NCBI GenBank assembly: GCA_016869735.1
Contig: VGDL01000010.1
Coordinates: 1 to 64,000 of the forward strand
Direction: 5' to 3'
Source of the DNA: Alphaproteobacteria bacterium
GTDB taxonomy: Bacteria; Pseudomonadota; Alphaproteobacteria; Acetobacterales; Acetobacteraceae
Length of the DNA stretch: 64,000 nt
Position 1 is the first letter of the stretch; each line of letters begins with the position of its first letter. Below the pieces are notes generated by a model, which was given only the letters and a program-made list of their open reading frames with translations, was not told where the DNA came from and ran no database searches. Below, piece after piece: positions 56,358 through 64,000 of this stretch. A program made the position numbers and the translations under genes.

Positions 56358-57320
56358 TTAGGCTTTACCCTGCCATTCGGGTGGCGCCACGCTGCCCACC
56401 TGTTCGGCGATGCGGCCATAATGTTCCGGGCGGCGATGGCGCGCGAAATCGAAAATCGTCTTCCGCCCCAATTCGCATTTGCCAAGGTCCGCTTCCGCCA
56501 CAATCAGCTCATCATCCCAGCTGGTAGCCTGGGCCATGATTTCCCCTTGCGGGTTCACGATGATGGAATGGCCGAACAGCTCATGCCCATCTTCCGTGCC
56601 AGCCTTGGCGGTTGCGACCGCAAAGCATGAATTCTGGTAGCACCCCGACTGAATGGAGAGGTGGCTATGGAAGACACGCAGATGCGGCGCCTCAAAACCG
56701 CGATTTTCCATATTGAGTGACGGCGTATTGTAGCCAAGCATGACCAATTCCACCTGCTGCAACCCCATCACGCGCCAGGCTTCCGGCCAGCGGCGGTCAT
56801 TGCAGATCATCATGCCAAGATTGACGGGCTGGCCCGCAACCGACGCGCGGATTACCGGAAAGCCAAGATCGCCCGGCTCAAAATAGCGCTTTTCCAGATG
56901 CTGCACATGGCGGACAGGATCGAATTCCTTATGCCCCGGCAAATGTACCTTGCGGTATTTCAGGATAATCTCGCCAGATGGCAGCACGAAAACCGCGGTA
57001 TTGAAGCGCCGGCCTTCCGGTGTTTTCTCGGCATAGCCCAGATGAAAGGCGATGCCCCATTTGCGCGCGGCTTCAAATAGCGGCGCGGTTTCATTGGAAG
57101 GGAGTGCCGCTTCATACCAATGATCTGCATTAGCGAGGTCTTCCTCATACCAGCGTGGGAAGAAGGTGGTCAGCGCCAATTCGGGAAAGACTACCACCTC
57201 GGCACCACGTTGATGCGCCTTTTCCATCAGGCGGATCATGCGCCCGACGGCAACATCACGGCCTTCGGCCTTTTGGATCGGGCCCAATTGCGCGGCGGCC
57301 AGAACAAGGGAACGGGTCAT
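56358..57320 (-). CDS. N-carbamoyl-D-amino-acid amidohydrolase-like nitrilase (copy 2)
   Basis: A 320-residue nitrilase-superfamily amidase. The catalytic triad is visible: Glu in VVFPELALTTFFPRW near residue 46, Lys in YRKVHLPG near 128, Cys in MMICNDRRWPEAWRVMGLQQ near 173. The ICNDRRWPEAWR and HSHLSIQSGCYQNSCF blocks match D-carbamoylases, which split N-carbamoyl-D-amino acids to amino acid, CO2 and ammonia. It is the last gene of the minus-strand operon, 60 bases after its paralogue, with a TATATATA stretch between that could hold an internal promoter. Confidence 0.9.
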   Translation of the reverse strand: MTRSLVLAAAQLGPIQKAEGRDVAVGRMIRLMEKAHQRGAEVVVFPELALTTFFPRWYEEDLANADHWYEAALPSNETAPLFEAARKWGIAFHLGYAEKTPEGRRFNTAVFVLPSGEIILKYRKVHLPGHKEFDPVRHVQHLEKRYFEPGDLGFPVIRASVAGQPVNLGMMICNDRRWPEAWRVMGLQQVELVMLGYNTPSLNMENRGFEAPHLRVFHSHLSIQSGCYQNSCFAVATAKAGTEDGHELFGHSIIVNPQGEIMAQATSWDDELIVAEADLGKCELGRKTIFDFARHRRPEHYGRIAEQVGSVAPPEWQGKA

Positions 57321-57380
57321 GCGCTCATCCTTTGCTTACACATATATATAAGTGTGTCATCGTGAACCGCGCGGCGCGCA

Positions 57381-58325
57381 TCACGCCGGCGGCACCGCCC
57401 CCACCTGGTCAATCATGGCGCGATACCATTGCGGGCGGCGATGGGCGGCGAAGTTGAACATCTTCTCCTTCCCCTGCCGGCAGGCATCGAAATCCACATC
57501 AGCGACAATGATCTCATCGCCCAGTGTCTTCGCTTCCGCCACCACGCGGCCATTCGGGTCCACAATCACTGAACCGCCAATGAGGCCGGAGCCATCCTCA
57601 ACGCCCGCCTTGGCAACCGAAATCGCCCAGGTCGCATTCATATAGACATTGCCCTGCACCGCGAGAGTCGAATGGAAGGTCCGCAGCGACTGGTCTTCGT
57701 TATCGCCGCCCATCGGATCATAGGCGGCCGAGTTATAGCCAATCAGCATCAGCTCAATCCCCTGCAAGCCATAGCAGCGCCAGGCTTCCGGCCAGCGGCG
57801 GTCATTGCAGATCAGCATGCCAAGCACCGGCCGGCCCCAGGCATCGGGACCGCGAAAAGCGGGAAAGCCGAGATCACCATACTCGAAATAGCGCTTTTCC
57901 AATTGCTGGAAGCGATTCCCAACGCGTGGTTCAACCGTGCCGGGCAGATGAATCTTGCGGTACTTGCCAAGCACGCTGCCATCCGGCCCAACCGTGATCG
58001 CCGTATTGTAGCGCTTGCCATGCGGTGTCAGTTCCGCATAGCCAAGATAAAAGCCAATGCCCAAGGCGCGGGCGCGATCAAATAGCGGCTGCACGCGCGG
58101 ATTGGGCATCTCGCGCTCAAAATAGCTGTCCAATTCGGCCTGGTCGGTGAATAGCCAGCGCGGGAAGAAGGTGGTCAGCGGCAATTCCGGAAACACCACC
58201 ATCTTCGCCCCGGCGGCGGCGGCCTGTTCCAACAAGGCGATCATACGCGCCAGGATCGCTTCCCGGCTATCGGCTTTTTGGTTCGGCCCCATTTGGGCGC
58301 CGGCAAGGCGCAATACTCGGCTCAT
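57381..58325 (-). CDS. N-carbamoyl-D-amino-acid amidohydrolase-like nitrilase (copy 1)
   Basis: A 314-residue paralogue of the next gene. Catalytic residues: Glu in VVFPELPLTTFFPRW, Lys in YRKIHLPG, Cys in MLICNDRRWPEAWRCYGLQG. Differences near the substrate pocket (HSTLAVQGNVYMNATW versus HSHLSIQSGCYQNSCF) suggest a different side-chain preference. The start overlaps the tctC stop by 4 bases, so it is translationally coupled. With the amidohydrolase at the operon head it could complete a hydantoin-to-amino-acid route. Confidence 0.9.
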   Translation of the reverse strand: MSRVLRLAGAQMGPNQKADSREAILARMIALLEQAAAAGAKMVVFPELPLTTFFPRWLFTDQAELDSYFEREMPNPRVQPLFDRARALGIGFYLGYAELTPHGKRYNTAITVGPDGSVLGKYRKIHLPGTVEPRVGNRFQQLEKRYFEYGDLGFPAFRGPDAWGRPVLGMLICNDRRWPEAWRCYGLQGIELMLIGYNSAAYDPMGGDNEDQSLRTFHSTLAVQGNVYMNATWAISVAKAGVEDGSGLIGGSVIVDPNGRVVAEAKTLGDEIIVADVDFDACRQGKEKMFNFAAHRRPQWYRAMIDQVGAVPPA

Positions 58326-59314
58326 TGTTCAAGCTCCGGACGAATAGCCTCGACCACAGGCGCGTAACGCCTGGTCTCGGCGGCGATGAAAGCGGCGGCG
58401 CTGGCGGGGGTGCCTAGCGCGGAAGCGGTGATGCCGGATGCGGCGAGGCTTGCGCGGAAAGTAGCATCGGCCAGGGTGGCATTGGTGGCAGCAGAAAGCC
58501 GTTCCAGGATTGGCGCAGGAAGGGCAGGGGGTGCGAAGACCGCATGCCACAACACCGCTTCAAAACCGGCAAGGCCAAGTGCTTCAGCAACGGTCGGCAC
58601 ATCGGGCGCCGCTTCCAATCGCCGTGCTGTTGCAACCGCCAACATGCGTGCGCGCCCGCCTTGGTGCAGCGGCAAGCCGCCGCCAAAAGTATTGACTGCG
58701 ATTGCCAAGGTGCCGCCCACCAAATCATTCATCGCTGGCGCTGCGCCGCGATAGGGCACATGGGTCAGCGCCACCCCGCCCGCCTGCTGCTTCAGCAACT
58801 CAGTGGCAAGGTGCATCATGGTCCCACTGCCTGGTGAGCCATAGGAAAGTGGTGGATTGGCGTTGCGCGCAACGGCGAGAAATTCGCGCAGCGTGTTGGG
58901 GCGCGATTGATGCGCCAACCAGCAAAGCGGCCCACCGCCCAATTCCGCAATCGTCGTGAAATCGCGCACCACATCGAACTGAGGCTGGCGCGTCACCAGC
59001 GGGTAAAGCGCATGGGTCGAAGCCGTGCCAAATAGGATCGTGTAACCATCAGCCCGCGCGCGCGACACTTCCAAGGAGCCAATCGCGCCACCCGCACCGC
59101 CACGATTTTCCGTCACCACCGTCTGGCCCAATTCGCGGCCCAGGCGCTCAGCATAAAGCCGAGCATAGACATCGGTCGGACCGCCGGCGGGGAAGGGGAT
59201 GATCATGCGGATCGGGCGGGAGGGATAAGCCTCCTGCGCCCGCACGCCGCCCGCGATCAGCGCCGCGCCAGCGCCAAACAGCGCGGCGCGGCGATAGATA
59301 TCAAAGCGCGGCAT
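58322..59314 (-). CDS. TctC/Bug family substrate-binding protein of the carbamoylase operon
   Basis: A 330-residue periplasmic binding protein. Signal YRRAALFGAGAALIAGGVRAQE. Family blocks are YPSRPIRMIIPFPAGGPTDVYAR and ARADGYTILFGTAST and LTHVPYRGAAPAMNDL. ATG 59314 overlaps the GlcG-like gene by 14 bases, and the stop overlaps the first carbamoylase gene by 4, which fixes it inside the operon. It is the only transport component here, so it should bind the pathway substrate, if it transports at all. Confidence 0.92.
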   Translation of the reverse strand: MPRFDIYRRAALFGAGAALIAGGVRAQEAYPSRPIRMIIPFPAGGPTDVYARLYAERLGRELGQTVVTENRGGAGGAIGSLEVSRARADGYTILFGTASTHALYPLVTRQPQFDVVRDFTTIAELGGGPLCWLAHQSRPNTLREFLAVARNANPPLSYGSPGSGTMMHLATELLKQQAGGVALTHVPYRGAAPAMNDLVGGTLAIAVNTFGGGLPLHQGGRARMLAVATARRLEAAPDVPTVAEALGLAGFEAVLWHAVFAPPALPAPILERLSAATNATLADATFRASLAASGITASALGTPASAAAFIAAETRRYAPVVEAIRPELEQ

Positions 59315-59798
59315 CACGCCAATTTTCAACCGCTGCATCGGGGTGGGAAGCAAGGCCCACGGCCTTGATGCCCTCACACGCCGCGTGTTCATCGCGGTCT
59401 GACGCATCGCCGCTGACGCCCACAGCACCAATCACGGCGCCGGCGGCATTCAGGATCAAGACGCCACCTGGCACGGGGACGAAGCTGCCATCGGAAGCGG
59501 CGGCGACGGCGGCCTGGAAGGCAATGCGTTCCTTCAGGCGATCACGCAGGATACGGCTGCCAACCCCCATGCCAAGCGCTGCATAGGCTTTGCCGCGCGC
59601 GATTTCGGCGCGCAGAATGCCCGAACCATCTTCGCGCTTTTGCACCACAACATGCCCGCCTGCATCCAGCACCACCACGGTCAGCGGCAGCATGCCCGCC
59701 GCGCGGCCCGTGGCCAGCGTGACATCTGCGATCTTATCGGCGGTCGCCAAAGGCAAATCCACCGCCAGGTGCTTCACATAATAATCTGCGGAATTCAT
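59301..59798 (-). CDS. GlcG/HbpS family protein (DUF336)
   Basis: A 165-residue cytosolic or secreted single-domain protein. VVVLDAGGHVVVQKREDGSG near residue 40 and FVPVPGGVLILNAAGAVIGAVGVSGDASDRDEHAA near 107 are the diagnostic blocks. Relatives include GlcG of the glycolate locus and the haem-binding sensor HbpS; the general function is unknown. GGGAGAAACGCG precedes ATG 59798, and no signal peptide is apparent. Such proteins often sit in catabolic operons. It overlaps tctC by 14 bases. Confidence 0.88.
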   Translation of the reverse strand: MNSADYYVKHLAVDLPLATADKIADVTLATGRAAGMLPLTVVVLDAGGHVVVQKREDGSGILRAEIARGKAYAALGMGVGSRILRDRLKERIAFQAAVAAASDGSFVPVPGGVLILNAAGAVIGAVGVSGDASDRDEHAACEGIKAVGLASHPDAAVENWRDAAL

Positions 59799-59865
59799 CG
59801 CGTTTCTCCCTGCGAAAATGGAAGGCCCTTCCATGGGCCAAGCAATACCGAGCGGCAAGCCGGGT

Positions 59866-60159
59866 TCAGAAAAACAAATCCCGGAAATCCTGCCGCGTGC
59901 CGCCAAACAGGCGCCAGGTCGCAATGGCGCCAATGCAAAGCCCGATGCCGGCGGCAATCGCCGGCACGGGATCGGGCAAGCCGCCCGCACCCGTGGCGGC
60001 GGCGTTCAACATGCCAAGCATGATGCCAACCGAACCCGCAATCATCGCCTGTACCAGTCCGGGCTTCCGCCTTGGTGGCGGCGCTGCGGGCTTGGATGGC
60101 CGCGGTGGCCGCTTGATCCAATGCCCTTCCGGGCGCTGCTTTTCCTTATTCTCCGACAT
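59866..60159 (-). CDS. small hypothetical membrane protein
   Basis: A 97-residue protein with a polar, Pro- and Lys-rich N-terminus (KEKQRPEGHWIKRPPRP, then PAAPPPRRKP) and two hydrophobic segments near residues 36-57 and 64-84, ending in FGGTRQDFRDLFF. I do not recognise a family. Its start overlaps the end of the amidohydrolase gene by 14 bases, in the same way as the other genes of this operon overlap, which supports it being real. It may be a membrane anchor or accessory subunit; no function is claimed. Confidence 0.7.
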   Translation of the reverse strand: MSENKEKQRPEGHWIKRPPRPSKPAAPPPRRKPGLVQAMIAGSVGIMLGMLNAAATGAGGLPDPVPAIAAGIGLCIGAIATWRLFGGTRQDFRDLFF

Positions 60160-61534
60160 AGGTTTCCCTGTGCTGACGCGGCACGAAGCGCCCGGCGCCG
60201 GGCTTGGCCAAAACTTGCTTGCCATCCCAAATCTGCTTGCCGCGCAGCCAGGTGGCGGCAACGCGGCCCTTCACCTTCATGCCATCATAGGGCGACCATT
60301 TGGCATCTTCCTGGTCCTGGATATCCTGTGCATCAAAGGTGAAATCGCCTTCTTCCATGACCAGCAAATCCGCATCCGCGCCCACACGCAACGCGCCCTT
60401 CTTCGGATAAAGCCCATGGAAGCGTGCCGGGCGTTCGGCGCAGTAAAGCGCCATCAGGCTGGGCGATAGGCCGCGTTGCTTGAGTAGCGTGAACATCACG
60501 GGCGCGAAGCTTTGCATCCCCGTGAGACCCGCGCCGACCGTGAAGATATCGCCGGTATAGGTCTTCCGGTCACGCGGCCAGGGCGCGTGATCGGTGGAGA
60601 CATAAGCGATCTGCCCCTTGGCAAAGGCGCCCCACATGCGTTCCACCTCATCCGCCGTGCGGAAGGGCGGGTTGCATTTGCCGAAGCCCTCAAGCCGGAT
60701 GATGTCTTCTTCCGTCATGCACAGGTATTGCAGGCAGGCTTCGCCCGATGCCTTGCCGCCCATGCGGCGGAACACCTCCGCAATCTCGAAACCGCGCGCC
60801 AGCGATGAATGGGCGATATGCACATGCGCGCCGGTCTCAAGCCCGATTTCGAAAATCTCCAGATCCGCCATGGTCTCACAGAGCGGCGGGCGGGTGCGGC
60901 AATGCCAGATGGGGGAGGTATTGCCAGCGGCCTTGGCTTCTTCGGTCAGGCGCACCACGATCTCCTGATCCTCATTATGCACGGCCACCATCAGCCCGGT
61001 CTTGGCGATTTCGCGAAAGGCCGCGACCATGGTGGGGTGGTCAATGCGCGGGAAGCGCACCGGGTCATATTCATAAGTGGAAAGCTTGAAGGAACAGGCG
61101 CCGGCTTCAGCGAGCCCGGCAATGGCATCCACACCGCCTGATTTCAGGATGGTGCCGTAAAGCGCCATATCCACATGGGATAGGCGGTTCACATATTCGA
61201 CCTTTTCCTTGAAAATGCCTGCATCCGTCACCGGGCGCGGCACATCATAGGGCATGTCAACGCAAGTCGTGACCCCGCCTGCGGCAGCGGTTTTGGAAGC
61301 GCCTTCAATCCCCGGCCAGCCGCGCGAAGATGAGGTATGCATATGCCCATCCACCAGCCCCGGCATGATCAGCTTGCTGCCGTAATCCTCGACCGATGTG
61401 GCCACCGGCGATGGTCCTTCGCCAATGCCGGCAATGATGTCGCCGCGCGTCGCGATCCAACCATTGGCCAGGATGCGATCAGGGAGCACCAAGGTGCCGC
61501 GAATGACGCGATCAAAAGGGGTGGTGGCGGGCAT
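60146..61534 (-). CDS. cyclic-amide amidohydrolase (allantoinase/dihydropyrimidinase/hydantoinase-like)
   Basis: A 462-residue metal hydrolase that opens a cyclic amide ring. Metal ligands: HxH in MPGLVDGHMHTSS near residue 60, the probable carboxylated Lys in SFKLSTYEYDP near 150, His in MVAVHNED near 183, His in AHVHIAHSS near 239, Asp in AYVSTDHAPWPRD near 313. AAAGGVTTCVDMPYD is typical of allantoinases. The exact ring substrate is not fixed by sequence. It heads the six-gene minus-strand operon and is divergent (133 bases) from the phosphonopyruvate hydrolase-like gene. Confidence 0.88.
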   Translation of the reverse strand: MPATTPFDRVIRGTLVLPDRILANGWIATRGDIIAGIGEGPSPVATSVEDYGSKLIMPGLVDGHMHTSSSRGWPGIEGASKTAAAGGVTTCVDMPYDVPRPVTDAGIFKEKVEYVNRLSHVDMALYGTILKSGGVDAIAGLAEAGACSFKLSTYEYDPVRFPRIDHPTMVAAFREIAKTGLMVAVHNEDQEIVVRLTEEAKAAGNTSPIWHCRTRPPLCETMADLEIFEIGLETGAHVHIAHSSLARGFEIAEVFRRMGGKASGEACLQYLCMTEEDIIRLEGFGKCNPPFRTADEVERMWGAFAKGQIAYVSTDHAPWPRDRKTYTGDIFTVGAGLTGMQSFAPVMFTLLKQRGLSPSLMALYCAERPARFHGLYPKKGALRVGADADLLVMEEGDFTFDAQDIQDQEDAKWSPYDGMKVKGRVAATWLRGKQIWDGKQVLAKPGAGRFVPRQHRETYVGE

Positions 61535-61667: not shown

Positions 61668-62537
61668 ATGTCAGAAAACCCCGCCGCGCGGCTTCGCGCC
61701 CGCCTTGACCCATCCCGCCCCGCGCTTGCCATGGCGGCACATAACGCGATTTCGGCGAAACTCGCCGCCGAAGCGGGTTTCGATGCCATTTGGGGCAGCG
61801 GGTTTGAGCTTTCCGCCGCCCATGCCGTGCCGGATGCCAGCATCCTATCCTGGGATACGCATCTGGCGGCGATGCGCGCCATGGTGGAAGCGCAGCCCGC
61901 CCCGGTAATTGCCGATATTGATACCGGGCAGGGCAATGCGGTGAATGTCGCCTATCTGGTGCCGCGCTATGCGGCGGCGGGTGTCGCGGCCGTGGTGATG
62001 GAAGACAAGACCTTCCCGAAAGGCAGCAGCCTGCGCCCCGGTGGGCGGCAGGAACTGGTGCCGATTGCAGAATTCCAGGGCAAGATCGAAGCCGCACGCA
62101 TCGCGGGCGGCCCGCTGGTGATCGCCCGCACGGAAGCGCTGATCGCGGGGCTGGGTCAGCATGAGGCGTTGAAGCGCGGTGCAGCCTATGCCGAAGCCGG
62201 GGCGGATGCGGTGCTGATCCATAGCAAGCAGAAAACGCCCGATGAGATTCTGGCCTTTTGCCGTGCCTGGCGGGGCCCGGTGCCGCTGGTGCTGGTGCCC
62301 ACTTCCTATCCCGAGCTTTCCTTCGCCGAAGTCGCGGCACTCGGCAAAGTGGGGCTGATCATTTGCGGCAATCACGCGATCCGCGCTGCCGTCGCCGCCA
62401 TGCGCCGCTGCTTTGCGCGCATCATCGCCGATGGCGGCATCGCTGGCGTCGAAGGCTCCATCGCCAGTGTCGCAGATATCCTTGCCCTTCAGGGGGATGG
62501 CGCGATGCGGGAGATTGAAAAGCGCTATTTGCGCTGA
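61668..62537 (+). CDS. phosphonopyruvate hydrolase-like protein (PEP mutase/isocitrate lyase superfamily)
   Basis: A 289-residue TIM-barrel enzyme. IWGSGFELSAAHAVPDA, IADIDTGQGNAVNV near residue 81, MEDKTFPKGSSLRPGGRQELV near 111 and LIAGLGQHEALKRG, VLIHSKQKTPDEILAF follow the known phosphonopyruvate hydrolase of Variovorax, which cleaves phosphonopyruvate to pyruvate and phosphate. In the gating loop the PEP mutase Asn (KTNS) and the hydrolase Thr (KDTS) correspond to Ser120 here (KGSS), which argues against mutase activity. No other phosphonate gene is visible. The 3' end overlaps the LysR gene by 13 bases on the other strand. Confidence 0.82.
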   Translation: MSENPAARLRARLDPSRPALAMAAHNAISAKLAAEAGFDAIWGSGFELSAAHAVPDASILSWDTHLAAMRAMVEAQPAPVIADIDTGQGNAVNVAYLVPRYAAAGVAAVVMEDKTFPKGSSLRPGGRQELVPIAEFQGKIEAARIAGGPLVIARTEALIAGLGQHEALKRGAAYAEAGADAVLIHSKQKTPDEILAFCRAWRGPVPLVLVPTSYPELSFAEVAALGKVGLIICGNHAIRAAVAAMRRCFARIIADGGIAGVEGSIASVADILALQGDGAMREIEKRYLR

Positions 62538-63436
62538 TCATTCCCGCCGAACTGCGCATCGGCGATTTGAAGCGCGAGGCTCGTTGCCTCATTCTCCCGC
62601 TCCGCATTCCAGGCGAGTGCGACACCAACGCCGCGAATGGGCCCCGCCAGAATCCGAAAGGCCACACCCGGCGGATTGAGCCGCGCCATGCCTTCCGAGA
62701 CCAGCGCAACACCAAGCCCTGCCGCGACGAAACCAAGCTGCGCCATGGCCGATCCCACTTCGCGCACCACACGCGGCGTGAAGCCTGCCGCATGGCAGGC
62801 GGCTGTCATCGCATCCGAATAGGCGGGGCTGATCGCGCGCGGCAGCATCAGCATCGGCGCTTCGGCCAGGGCAGATAGCGGCAAAGGATCAGGCCCGGCC
62901 AGAATCGGATGGCCTTCCGGCAAGGCGGCAGCGAGCCTGTCTTCTCCCAAGGGCCGTAGCCTGATCGGCGCGCGGTCCCGATCCGAACGGAGCAAGGCCA
63001 GATCAACCTCGCCGCGCCTTAGTGCTTCCAACGCCTCGGCCGTATCCATCTCCCTGACGCCAATCGCGGCTTCCGGGCGTGCCGCCTGCATGGCGCGCAC
63101 GATGGGCGGCAGATAATCGAATAGCGCGGAGGTGACGCAGGCAATGGAAACCGGCGCGTGATGGCCCATGCGCAATTCGCGCGCGAGGCTTTCAAGATCC
63201 GCCGCATTGCCGGCGATGCGCCGTGCGAGGGGCAGCAACGCTTCCCCCTCCCGCGTCGGGCGTGCGCCCTTGCCGCTGCGTTCCAGCAGCTTCACGCCGA
63301 GTTCCTTTTCCAGCAATTGGATTTGCGCCGTCAGTGGCGGCTGCGAAATGCCAAGCCGCGCGGCGGCGCGACCGAAATGACCTTCTTCGGCCACGGCCAG
63401 AAAATGCCCCAGGCGGCGGATCAGGCGAAAATCCAT
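62525..63436 (-). CDS. LysR family transcription regulator
   Basis: A 303-residue regulator. The N-terminal helix-turn-helix is FLAVAEEGHFGRAAARLGISQPPLTAQIQLLEKELG near residues 12-47, followed by the linker helix and the two-lobed ligand domain (HHAPVSIACVTSALFDYLPP). It is divergent from the prpD/mmgE gene (134 bases), the usual position for regulating it, and convergent with the phosphonopyruvate hydrolase-like gene. The ligand is unknown. Confidence 0.93.
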   Translation of the reverse strand: MDFRLIRRLGHFLAVAEEGHFGRAAARLGISQPPLTAQIQLLEKELGVKLLERSGKGARPTREGEALLPLARRIAGNAADLESLARELRMGHHAPVSIACVTSALFDYLPPIVRAMQAARPEAAIGVREMDTAEALEALRRGEVDLALLRSDRDRAPIRLRPLGEDRLAAALPEGHPILAGPDPLPLSALAEAPMLMLPRAISPAYSDAMTAACHAAGFTPRVVREVGSAMAQLGFVAAGLGVALVSEGMARLNPPGVAFRILAGPIRGVGVALAWNAERENEATSLALQIADAQFGGNDQRK

Positions 63437-63570: not shown

Positions 63571-64000
63571 ATGAAACTCAACGCCGTAAAGGTTCACCCA
63601 TCCAAGGCGCTATTAAAGCGCGAAGACCAACTGGCCTGGAAAATGGCCGGAGTCGCCGTGGACAAGGTCGCGGTCGAAAAGCCGGTGCAGGAGATGATCA
63701 TCAACCGGATCATCGACAACGCCTCGGTCGCCATCGCCGCCATCAATCGCCGGCCGGTCGTCTCGGCGCGCGGCATGGCGCTTGGCCATGCGAAGAAGGC
63801 CGGTGGCGCGCAGGTGTTTGGCGTGAAATCCGCCACCACGGTTTCCCCCGAATGGGCGGCCTGGGCCAATGGCACTGCCGTGCGCGAATTGGATATGCAC
63901 GACACTTTCCTCGCCGCTGATTACTCCCACCCTGGCGATAATATCCCGCCGATCCTGGCGGTGGCGCAGGCCATGGGGAAATCCGGGCGTGATCTGATCC
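63571..64000 (+). CDS. prpD: MmgE/PrpD family protein, 5' part (2-methylcitrate dehydratase-like)
   Basis: Only the first 143 residues are in the window; the gene runs off the end. KLNAVKVHPSKALLKREDQLAWKMAGVA, IIDNASVAIAAINRRPV and FGVKSATTVSPEWAAWANGTAVRELDMHDTFLA, then YSHPGDNIPPILAVAQ, match the PrpD N-domain. PrpD dehydrates 2-methylcitrate in propionate catabolism; MmgE-type paralogues act on other substrates, so the specific role is open. AAAGGGAGAAG precedes ATG 63571. Probably regulated by the divergent LysR gene. Confidence 0.85.
   Translation, partial: MKLNAVKVHPSKALLKREDQLAWKMAGVAVDKVAVEKPVQEMIINRIIDNASVAIAAINRRPVVSARGMALGHAKKAGGAQVFGVKSATTVSPEWAAWANGTAVRELDMHDTFLAADYSHPGDNIPPILAVAQAMGKSGRDLI

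Follow-up and report, generated by a model that had tools for sequence, protein, structure and literature searches.

A six-gene operon of the Acetobacteraceae is a probable variant of the hydantoinase-carbamoylase module

What would a bacterium do with an operon that places one ring-opening hydrolase beside two enzymes resembling D-carbamoylases? The question is raised by a 64,000-nucleotide stretch of DNA (hereafter the window) from an alphaproteobacterium of the family Acetobacteraceae (GenBank assembly GCA_016869735.1, contig VGDL01000010.1, positions 1 to 64,000), in which six open reading frames (ORFs) occupy positions 61534-56358 of the minus strand. D-carbamoylases are used industrially to make D-amino acids, and to our knowledge their natural role is regarded as unclear. 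Here we report that the operon is best read as a variant form of the hydantoinase-carbamoylase module that is already known, probably one with a catabolic role.

Gene content and selection

All six ORFs are present in the source assembly (3.25 Mb, 99% complete), in the following order of transcription.

60146..61534, minus strand: AMH, a predicted cyclic amidohydrolase (ring opening) of 462 amino acids, from an uncharacterised subfamily near ErtD, allantoinase and L-hydantoinase, with six conserved ligands
59866..60159, minus strand: SMP, a small protein of 97 amino acids without a known family, probably with two membrane spans (hydropathy), overlapping AMH by 14 bases
59301..59798, minus strand: GLCG, a GlcG/HbpS-like protein (PF03928)
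58322..59314, minus strand: TCTC, a Bug/TctC periplasmic solute receptor (Pfam TctC and structure matches)
57381..58325, minus strand: DC1, an amidase of the D-carbamoylase fold in a separate clade, with an altered pocket (Q, S and A at D-carbamoylase positions 144, 198 and 199; structure matches, tree and alignment)
56358..57320, minus strand: DC2, a D-carbamoylase with classical pocket residues (structure matches, tree and alignment)

Pfam recognised one Amidohydro_1, one HbpS-like, one TctC and two CN_hydrolase proteins. The spacing between successive genes is -14, +67, -14, -4 and +60 bases, in agreement with the original prediction of a compact six-gene operon with overlaps of 4 or 14 bases and gaps within about 70 bases, and the genes would probably be read as one transcript. 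All six are under purifying selection (dN/dS 0.00-0.14). Compared with two near relatives, L038 and L049, respectively, the ratios were 0.030 and 0.057 for AMH, 0.034 and 0.041 for GLCG, 0.135 and 0.134 for TCTC, 0.052 and 0.038 for DC1, and 0.041 and 0.033 for DC2; for SMP they were 0.025 and 0, over only 59 codons, its gene calls being short.

AMH carries a complete metal site and stands apart from ErtD

The closest solved structure to AMH is the L-hydantoinase 1gkr (E 3e-58), and allantoinases match at E 3e-50 to 1e-45. The top NCBIfam model is ErtD (NF058538, hydantoin-5-propionate amidohydrolase), which AMH matches over its full length with 498.7 bits, below the curated cut-off of 600. 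Similarly, AMH did not reach the cut-off of the allantoinase AllB model (TIGR03178; 292.8 bits, cut-off 357.85) or that of the D-hydantoinase/dihydropyrimidinase model (TIGR02033; 196.5 bits, cut-off 393.25). In an alignment containing 85 AMH rows, equivalent to 81 distinct sequences, residues H64, H66, K150, H186, H242 and D315 were invariant in 81/81, and the ligand set of the binuclear-metal cyclic amidohydrolases (HxH, Lys, His, His, Asp) was complete in each, the role of each ligand being assigned by homology. Judged by these features, AMH appears to be a metal-dependent cyclic amidohydrolase of an uncharacterised subfamily near ErtD, allantoinase and L-hydantoinase.

The first histidine of the HxH motif separates AMH from its best-scoring model. 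Of 398 genomes from this phylum, 6 carry a protein above the ErtD cut-off, and the five of these proteins that were aligned all have Gln at position 64, as opposed to His in 81/81 distinct AMH. Because Gln also occupies this position in 6 of 8 other AMH relatives (40-49% identity; His in G140 and G103), Gln64 marks a wider sister group and not ErtD alone. Further, in a FastTree phylogeny of 35 of the 101 aligned sequences, AMH and the G140 protein form one clade with a local support of 1.0, with ErtD and the rest outside. Between AMH and ErtD, 46 differences are near-invariant on each side, among them positions 73, 75, 76, 99 and 154-156, which presumably lie near the loops known in hydantoinases as stereochemistry gate loops.

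As a separate observation, the sister group that contains ErtD (L132-L137, L140-L143 and L193) has Gln in place of the first HxH histidine in 11 of 12 aligned proteins, the exception being L139, and proteins with this substitution include members outside ErtD clusters.

DC2 has a classical D-carbamoylase pocket and DC1 an altered one

DC1 and DC2, which are 52% identical to each other, both have 6lei as best structure match (E 7e-102 and 1e-101), and both align over their full length to the D-carbamoylase structures 1fo6 and 6lei (E 1e-101 to 4e-95). The Glu, Lys and Cys residues, an Asn and two Arg are retained in both. After removal of duplicate genes, the Cys-Glu-Lys triad was found in 51/51 distinct DC1. 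However, at the positions of His144, Thr198 and Pro199 (Pseudomonas D-carbamoylase numbering) all 51 carry Gln, Ser and Ala, so that the ligand residues His144 and Pro199 occur in 0/51. DC2, in contrast, has His at 144 in 55/56 distinct genes and Thr-Pro at 198-199 in 56/56, and at 13 compared pocket positions it is identical to 6lei in 54/56. The DC2 gene in the window has the Cys-Glu-Lys triad together with His144, Asn173, Arg176 and Pro199, and the full pattern recurs in 54/56 distinct DC2. Among 26 other D-carbamoylases, His is found at 144 in 24 and Asn in 2, and Thr-Pro in 26/26. These were drawn from a comparison set of 29 D-carbamoylase loci, which are part of the matches found in 60 of 385 Alphaproteobacteria genomes. 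A 72-sequence tree places all DC2 (22/22) in one clade with support 1.0, and the 20 sampled DC1 in another together with three of the 29 comparison loci (support 0.999).

According to a docking and dynamics study, the residues of D-carbamoylase that interact with the ligand are Lys127, Gly132, His144, Cys172, Asn173, Arg176 and Pro199 (PMC11503299). Set against that list, two of the seven contacts are consistently changed in DC1, with the catalytic residues intact. DC2 is thus expected to be an ordinary D-carbamoylase, most likely acting on N-carbamoyl-D-alpha-amino acids. DC1 is not expected to be one; with its consistently changed pocket, it most likely acts on some other N-carbamoyl acid.

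L202 and L203 (family f56) also have carbamoylases of the DC1 type, with Gln, Ser and Ala in the pocket as in DC1; in these two a genome search for an AMH relative at E 1e-60 was negative. The neighbours in L203 include a histidine kinase, an HlyIII-like protein and two proteins without a Pfam match.

An AMH-carbamoylase core is conserved in Acetobacteraceae

At E 1e-80, AMH was found in 62 of 146 relatives, including all 34 listed of the same genus, and was not found in several genomes of the same family. We sampled the loci of 80 of 277 AMH relatives, with genes called by our own script; the tallies below depend on the identity thresholds chosen. Downstream counts use the 57 loci with at least 8.9 kb downstream, and a match was scored if it lay on the same strand and no more than 9 kb away. 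The nearest named loci (AMH 97-99% identical) come from 17 metagenome-bin contigs, of which 11 bear the label Roseomonas, and Neoroseomonas species come next with AMH about 82% identical.

A carbamoylase follows AMH in 50/57 loci. DC1 is present in 34/57 and DC2 in 45/57; both occur together in 29/57, DC1 only in 5/57, DC2 only in 16/57 and neither in 7/57. One of these seven, L072, was scored as a miss because DC2 is inverted there and only same-strand matches count. Together with the E values of about 1e-101 that relate DC1 and DC2 to solved D-carbamoylases, this count bears out the earlier view of the operon as a ring-opening hydrolase with two D-carbamoylase-like enzymes. The remaining genes are found far less often (GLCG 16/57, TCTC 16/57, SMP 23/57), and for this reason we separate a core, AMH plus carbamoylase, which is conserved in Acetobacteraceae, from the accessories GLCG, TCTC and SMP.

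When the original prediction asked for the same gene set elsewhere, it was answered by 15/57 loci with all six genes, or 18/80 without the flank filter; 14 of these 18 come from metagenome bins that are nearly identical, and in the other four (L054, L055, L056 and L106) AMH is at 82%. The further suggestion, that the pairing with GlcG/HbpS and a small membrane protein may mark an undescribed pathway, is not supported by the accessory counts. Other branches carry instead a flavin monooxygenase (13/57), other small proteins or a Peripla_BP_6 receptor. The flavin monooxygenase-like gene stands between DC1 and DC2, for example in Neoroseomonas (L109:13108-14865 and L154:11561-13318).

Among the accessories, TCTC matches BugD, Bug27 and TBP structures (E 2e-50 to 4e-46), and GLCG weakly resembles EfgA (6bws, 41 bits) and NahX (9jth, 30 bits). 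SMP has two weakly hydrophobic stretches and matched nothing in Pfam or NCBIfam at E 0.001. An anti-phage role of GLCG and SMP was considered and dropped, there being no PADLOC match.

Proposed pathway

We propose that a cyclic ureide may be bound for transport by TCTC, the periplasmic receptor, that AMH would open the ring as a metal-dependent hydrolase to give an N-carbamoyl acid, and that DC1 and DC2, as Cys-Glu-Lys amidases, would release ammonia and carbon dioxide from the carbamoyl group, leaving an amine or amino acid as the likely end product. DC1 and DC2 would work on different substrates. Gene order, protein families, intact catalytic residues and conservation can be read from the sequence; transport, ring size, stereochemistry, substrates and end product are inferred. 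Among the proposed substrates, a 5-substituted hydantoin would be the best fit.

The distribution of racemases is consistent with this proposal. A protein of the Asp/Glu/hydantoin racemase Pfam family is encoded downstream in 20/57 loci, and G559 has a same-strand run of a D-carbamoylase, an Asp/Glu/hydantoin racemase and an AMH-like enzyme (43% identical). The racemase downstream in these relatives, and between a D-carbamoylase and a sister-type ring opener in G559, fits hydantoin use.

Several findings weigh against the proposal. In those 20/57 loci the racemase is encoded on the opposite strand. This genome has its closest racemase match (58%) away from the operon, on contig C24, and the ring opener in G559 belongs to the sister group and not to AMH proper, because it has Gln at position 64. 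A different gene, located on contig C1, encodes the canonical D-hydantoinase/dihydropyrimidinase of this genome (485 bits against a cut-off of 393). In 7/57 loci no carbamoylase was found on the expected strand within 9 kb downstream of AMH. DC1 is present in G641 (88% complete) and G799 (95%), two genomes in which a search for AMH relatives at E 1e-60 was negative, which indicates that the AMH-DC1 pair is not obligatory. Finally, no activity is known for any member.

prpD and prpC are steady upstream neighbours

Upstream of the operon lie the following genes.

61668-62537, plus strand: phosphonopyruvate-hydrolase-like gene (403 bits against a cut-off of 374.4, with 2dua as the nearest structure)
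62525..63436, minus strand: LysR-type regulator (Pfam), divergent from prpD
63571..64000, plus strand: prpD (2-methylcitrate dehydratase family), continuing past the window end
about 65172-66305 in window numbering: prpC, after prpD on the same contig

Upstream counts rest on the 61 loci that extend at least 4.5 kb in that direction. Of these, 57 have prpD and 56 have prpC, both genes of the methylcitrate cycle for breaking down propionate. The LysR gene lies on the operon's strand in 38, and the phosphonopyruvate-hydrolase-like gene, arranged head to head with the operon, occurs in 11. Although the tally favours close neighbours because loci were picked by AMH, prpD-prpC is as steady a neighbour as the carbamoylase side. 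The prpD and prpC of the source genome are each 98% identical to the genes of typed relatives, of which the synthase passes the 2-methylcitrate/citrate synthase model (572.7, cut-off 479) and the dehydratase scores best against the PrpD model, yet below its cut-off (827.6 of 950). PrpB is over the cut-off (410.7, cut-off 354.4) on another contig of this genome. The G140 genome, which belongs to a different family, has AMH (49%), DC1 (64%), prpD (69%) and prpC (66%) together; among 115 genomes searched around and including G140, a close AMH relative was found in G140 and G559 only.

The link may mean that the pathway yields propionyl-CoA; alternatively, an old gene order may have been kept or moved as a block. 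The LysR-type protein is a candidate regulator of the operon. A bolder idea, which we regard as rather unlikely, is that AMH and DC1 form a pair dedicated to a cyclic ureide not yet described, other than a D-amino-acid hydantoin, dihydropyrimidine, allantoin or hydantoin-5-propionate, whose carbon skeleton ends as propionyl-CoA; this would explain the repeated company of the pair with prpD and prpC throughout Acetobacteraceae and in a second family of Alphaproteobacteria.

Alternative pathways

The same neighbours can be recruited for reductive pyrimidine breakdown, in which AMH would open dihydrouracil or dihydrothymine and a carbamoylase would free beta-alanine or beta-aminoisobutyrate, the latter leading to propionyl-CoA for PrpC and PrpD. 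The upstream tallies for prpD and prpC, the PrpB gene of this genome and the membership of dihydropyrimidinases in the AMH superfamily speak for it. However, the best match to PreA (dihydropyrimidine dehydrogenase) in this genome reaches 29.3 bits against a cut-off of 335, so that the route would miss its first enzyme; the genome has a separate dihydropyrimidinase/D-hydantoinase, on whose model AMH falls far short of the cut-off, and DC1 and DC2 belong to the D-carbamoylase branch. We therefore give this route little chance. A pathway for allantoin or another purine ureide, with AMH as allantoinase, seems to us just as improbable: the allantoinase model does score AMH, but below its cut-off, and we know of no carbamoylase of the D-carbamoylase branch that acts on allantoate. 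Among the substrates named in the original prediction, a hydantoin with a substituent at position 5 thus fits best, and dihydropyrimidines (no PreA over cut-off) and allantoin (AMH below the allantoinase cut-off) are disfavoured.

Most improbable of all is the lower half of ergothioneine breakdown, in which AMH would be ErtD, converting hydantoin-5-propionate to N-carbamoyl-glutamate, with DC1 and DC2 replacing ErtE. ErtD is indeed the best NCBIfam model for AMH, but its cut-off is not reached, the residue at position 64 differs from that of the five aligned ErtD (Gln being shared by 6/8 other sister proteins), and in the typed cluster L132 ErtD is accompanied by a histidine-lyase homologue, ErtE and thiourocanate hydratase. 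Moreover, no match to the urocanase family (PF01175), present in L132, was found in this 99% complete genome, so the route would miss a step. Cut-off, metal motif, L132 neighbours and urocanase search together led us to disfavour it. An unlikely account, but one with more to recommend it, is the scavenging of accidental carbamoylation and cyclisation products, that is, ordinary amino-acid hydantoins, with DC1 and DC2 sharing the range of side chains. It would suit the co-occurrence of two divergent carbamoylases in 29/57 loci and the variable accessory genes; the receptor and the LysR gene, on the other hand, would suggest catabolic, inducible use.

Relation to known systems

Like clusters of D-hydantoinase, hydantoin racemase and D-carbamoylase, the operon pairs a ring opener with a D-carbamoylase homologue; of the 29 comparison loci, which come from other Alphaproteobacteria genomes, 16 have a match of hydantoinase or racemase type within about 1.5 kb of the D-carbamoylase. 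Unlike them, its ring opener is outside the D-hydantoinase family, it has two carbamoylases, one of a separate clade, and no racemase, and it adds GLCG, TCTC and SMP and adjoins prpD-prpC. AMH resembles ErtD in its top-scoring, full-length match and differs in score, in His for Gln at 64 and in gene neighbours. Both carbamoylases resemble the Agrobacterium (1fo6) and Nitratireductor (6lei) enzymes over their full length and in the catalytic Glu, Lys and Cys, with DC1 set apart by its Gln, Ser and Ala. Among the records listed from an open-access library on hydantoinases (also in connection with methylcitrate), D-carbamoylases, ergothioneine and HbpS/GlcG, no title or opening of an abstract describes the six-gene set.

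What emerges is a conserved, selected set with a different ring opener, a DC1 clade altered at two published contacts and a steady metabolic neighbour. Its physiological substrate becomes testable with few compounds in cultured Neoroseomonas species, and AMH and the DC1 type offer two uncharacterised enzyme subfamilies for biocatalysis.

Noncoding features

Within the window, no Rfam family reached its gathering score. A near-palindrome, ACACTTATATATATGTGT, lies at 57338-57355, in the 60 bases that separate DC1 from DC2, and its pattern recurs in 1/80 relatives (L046). This DC1-DC2 gap (57321-57380) is an insertion spot among close relatives: an antisense glyoxalase-like gene occupies it in L036, L041, L045, L049, L052 and L073, and an extra TctC-like gene in L038 and L043.

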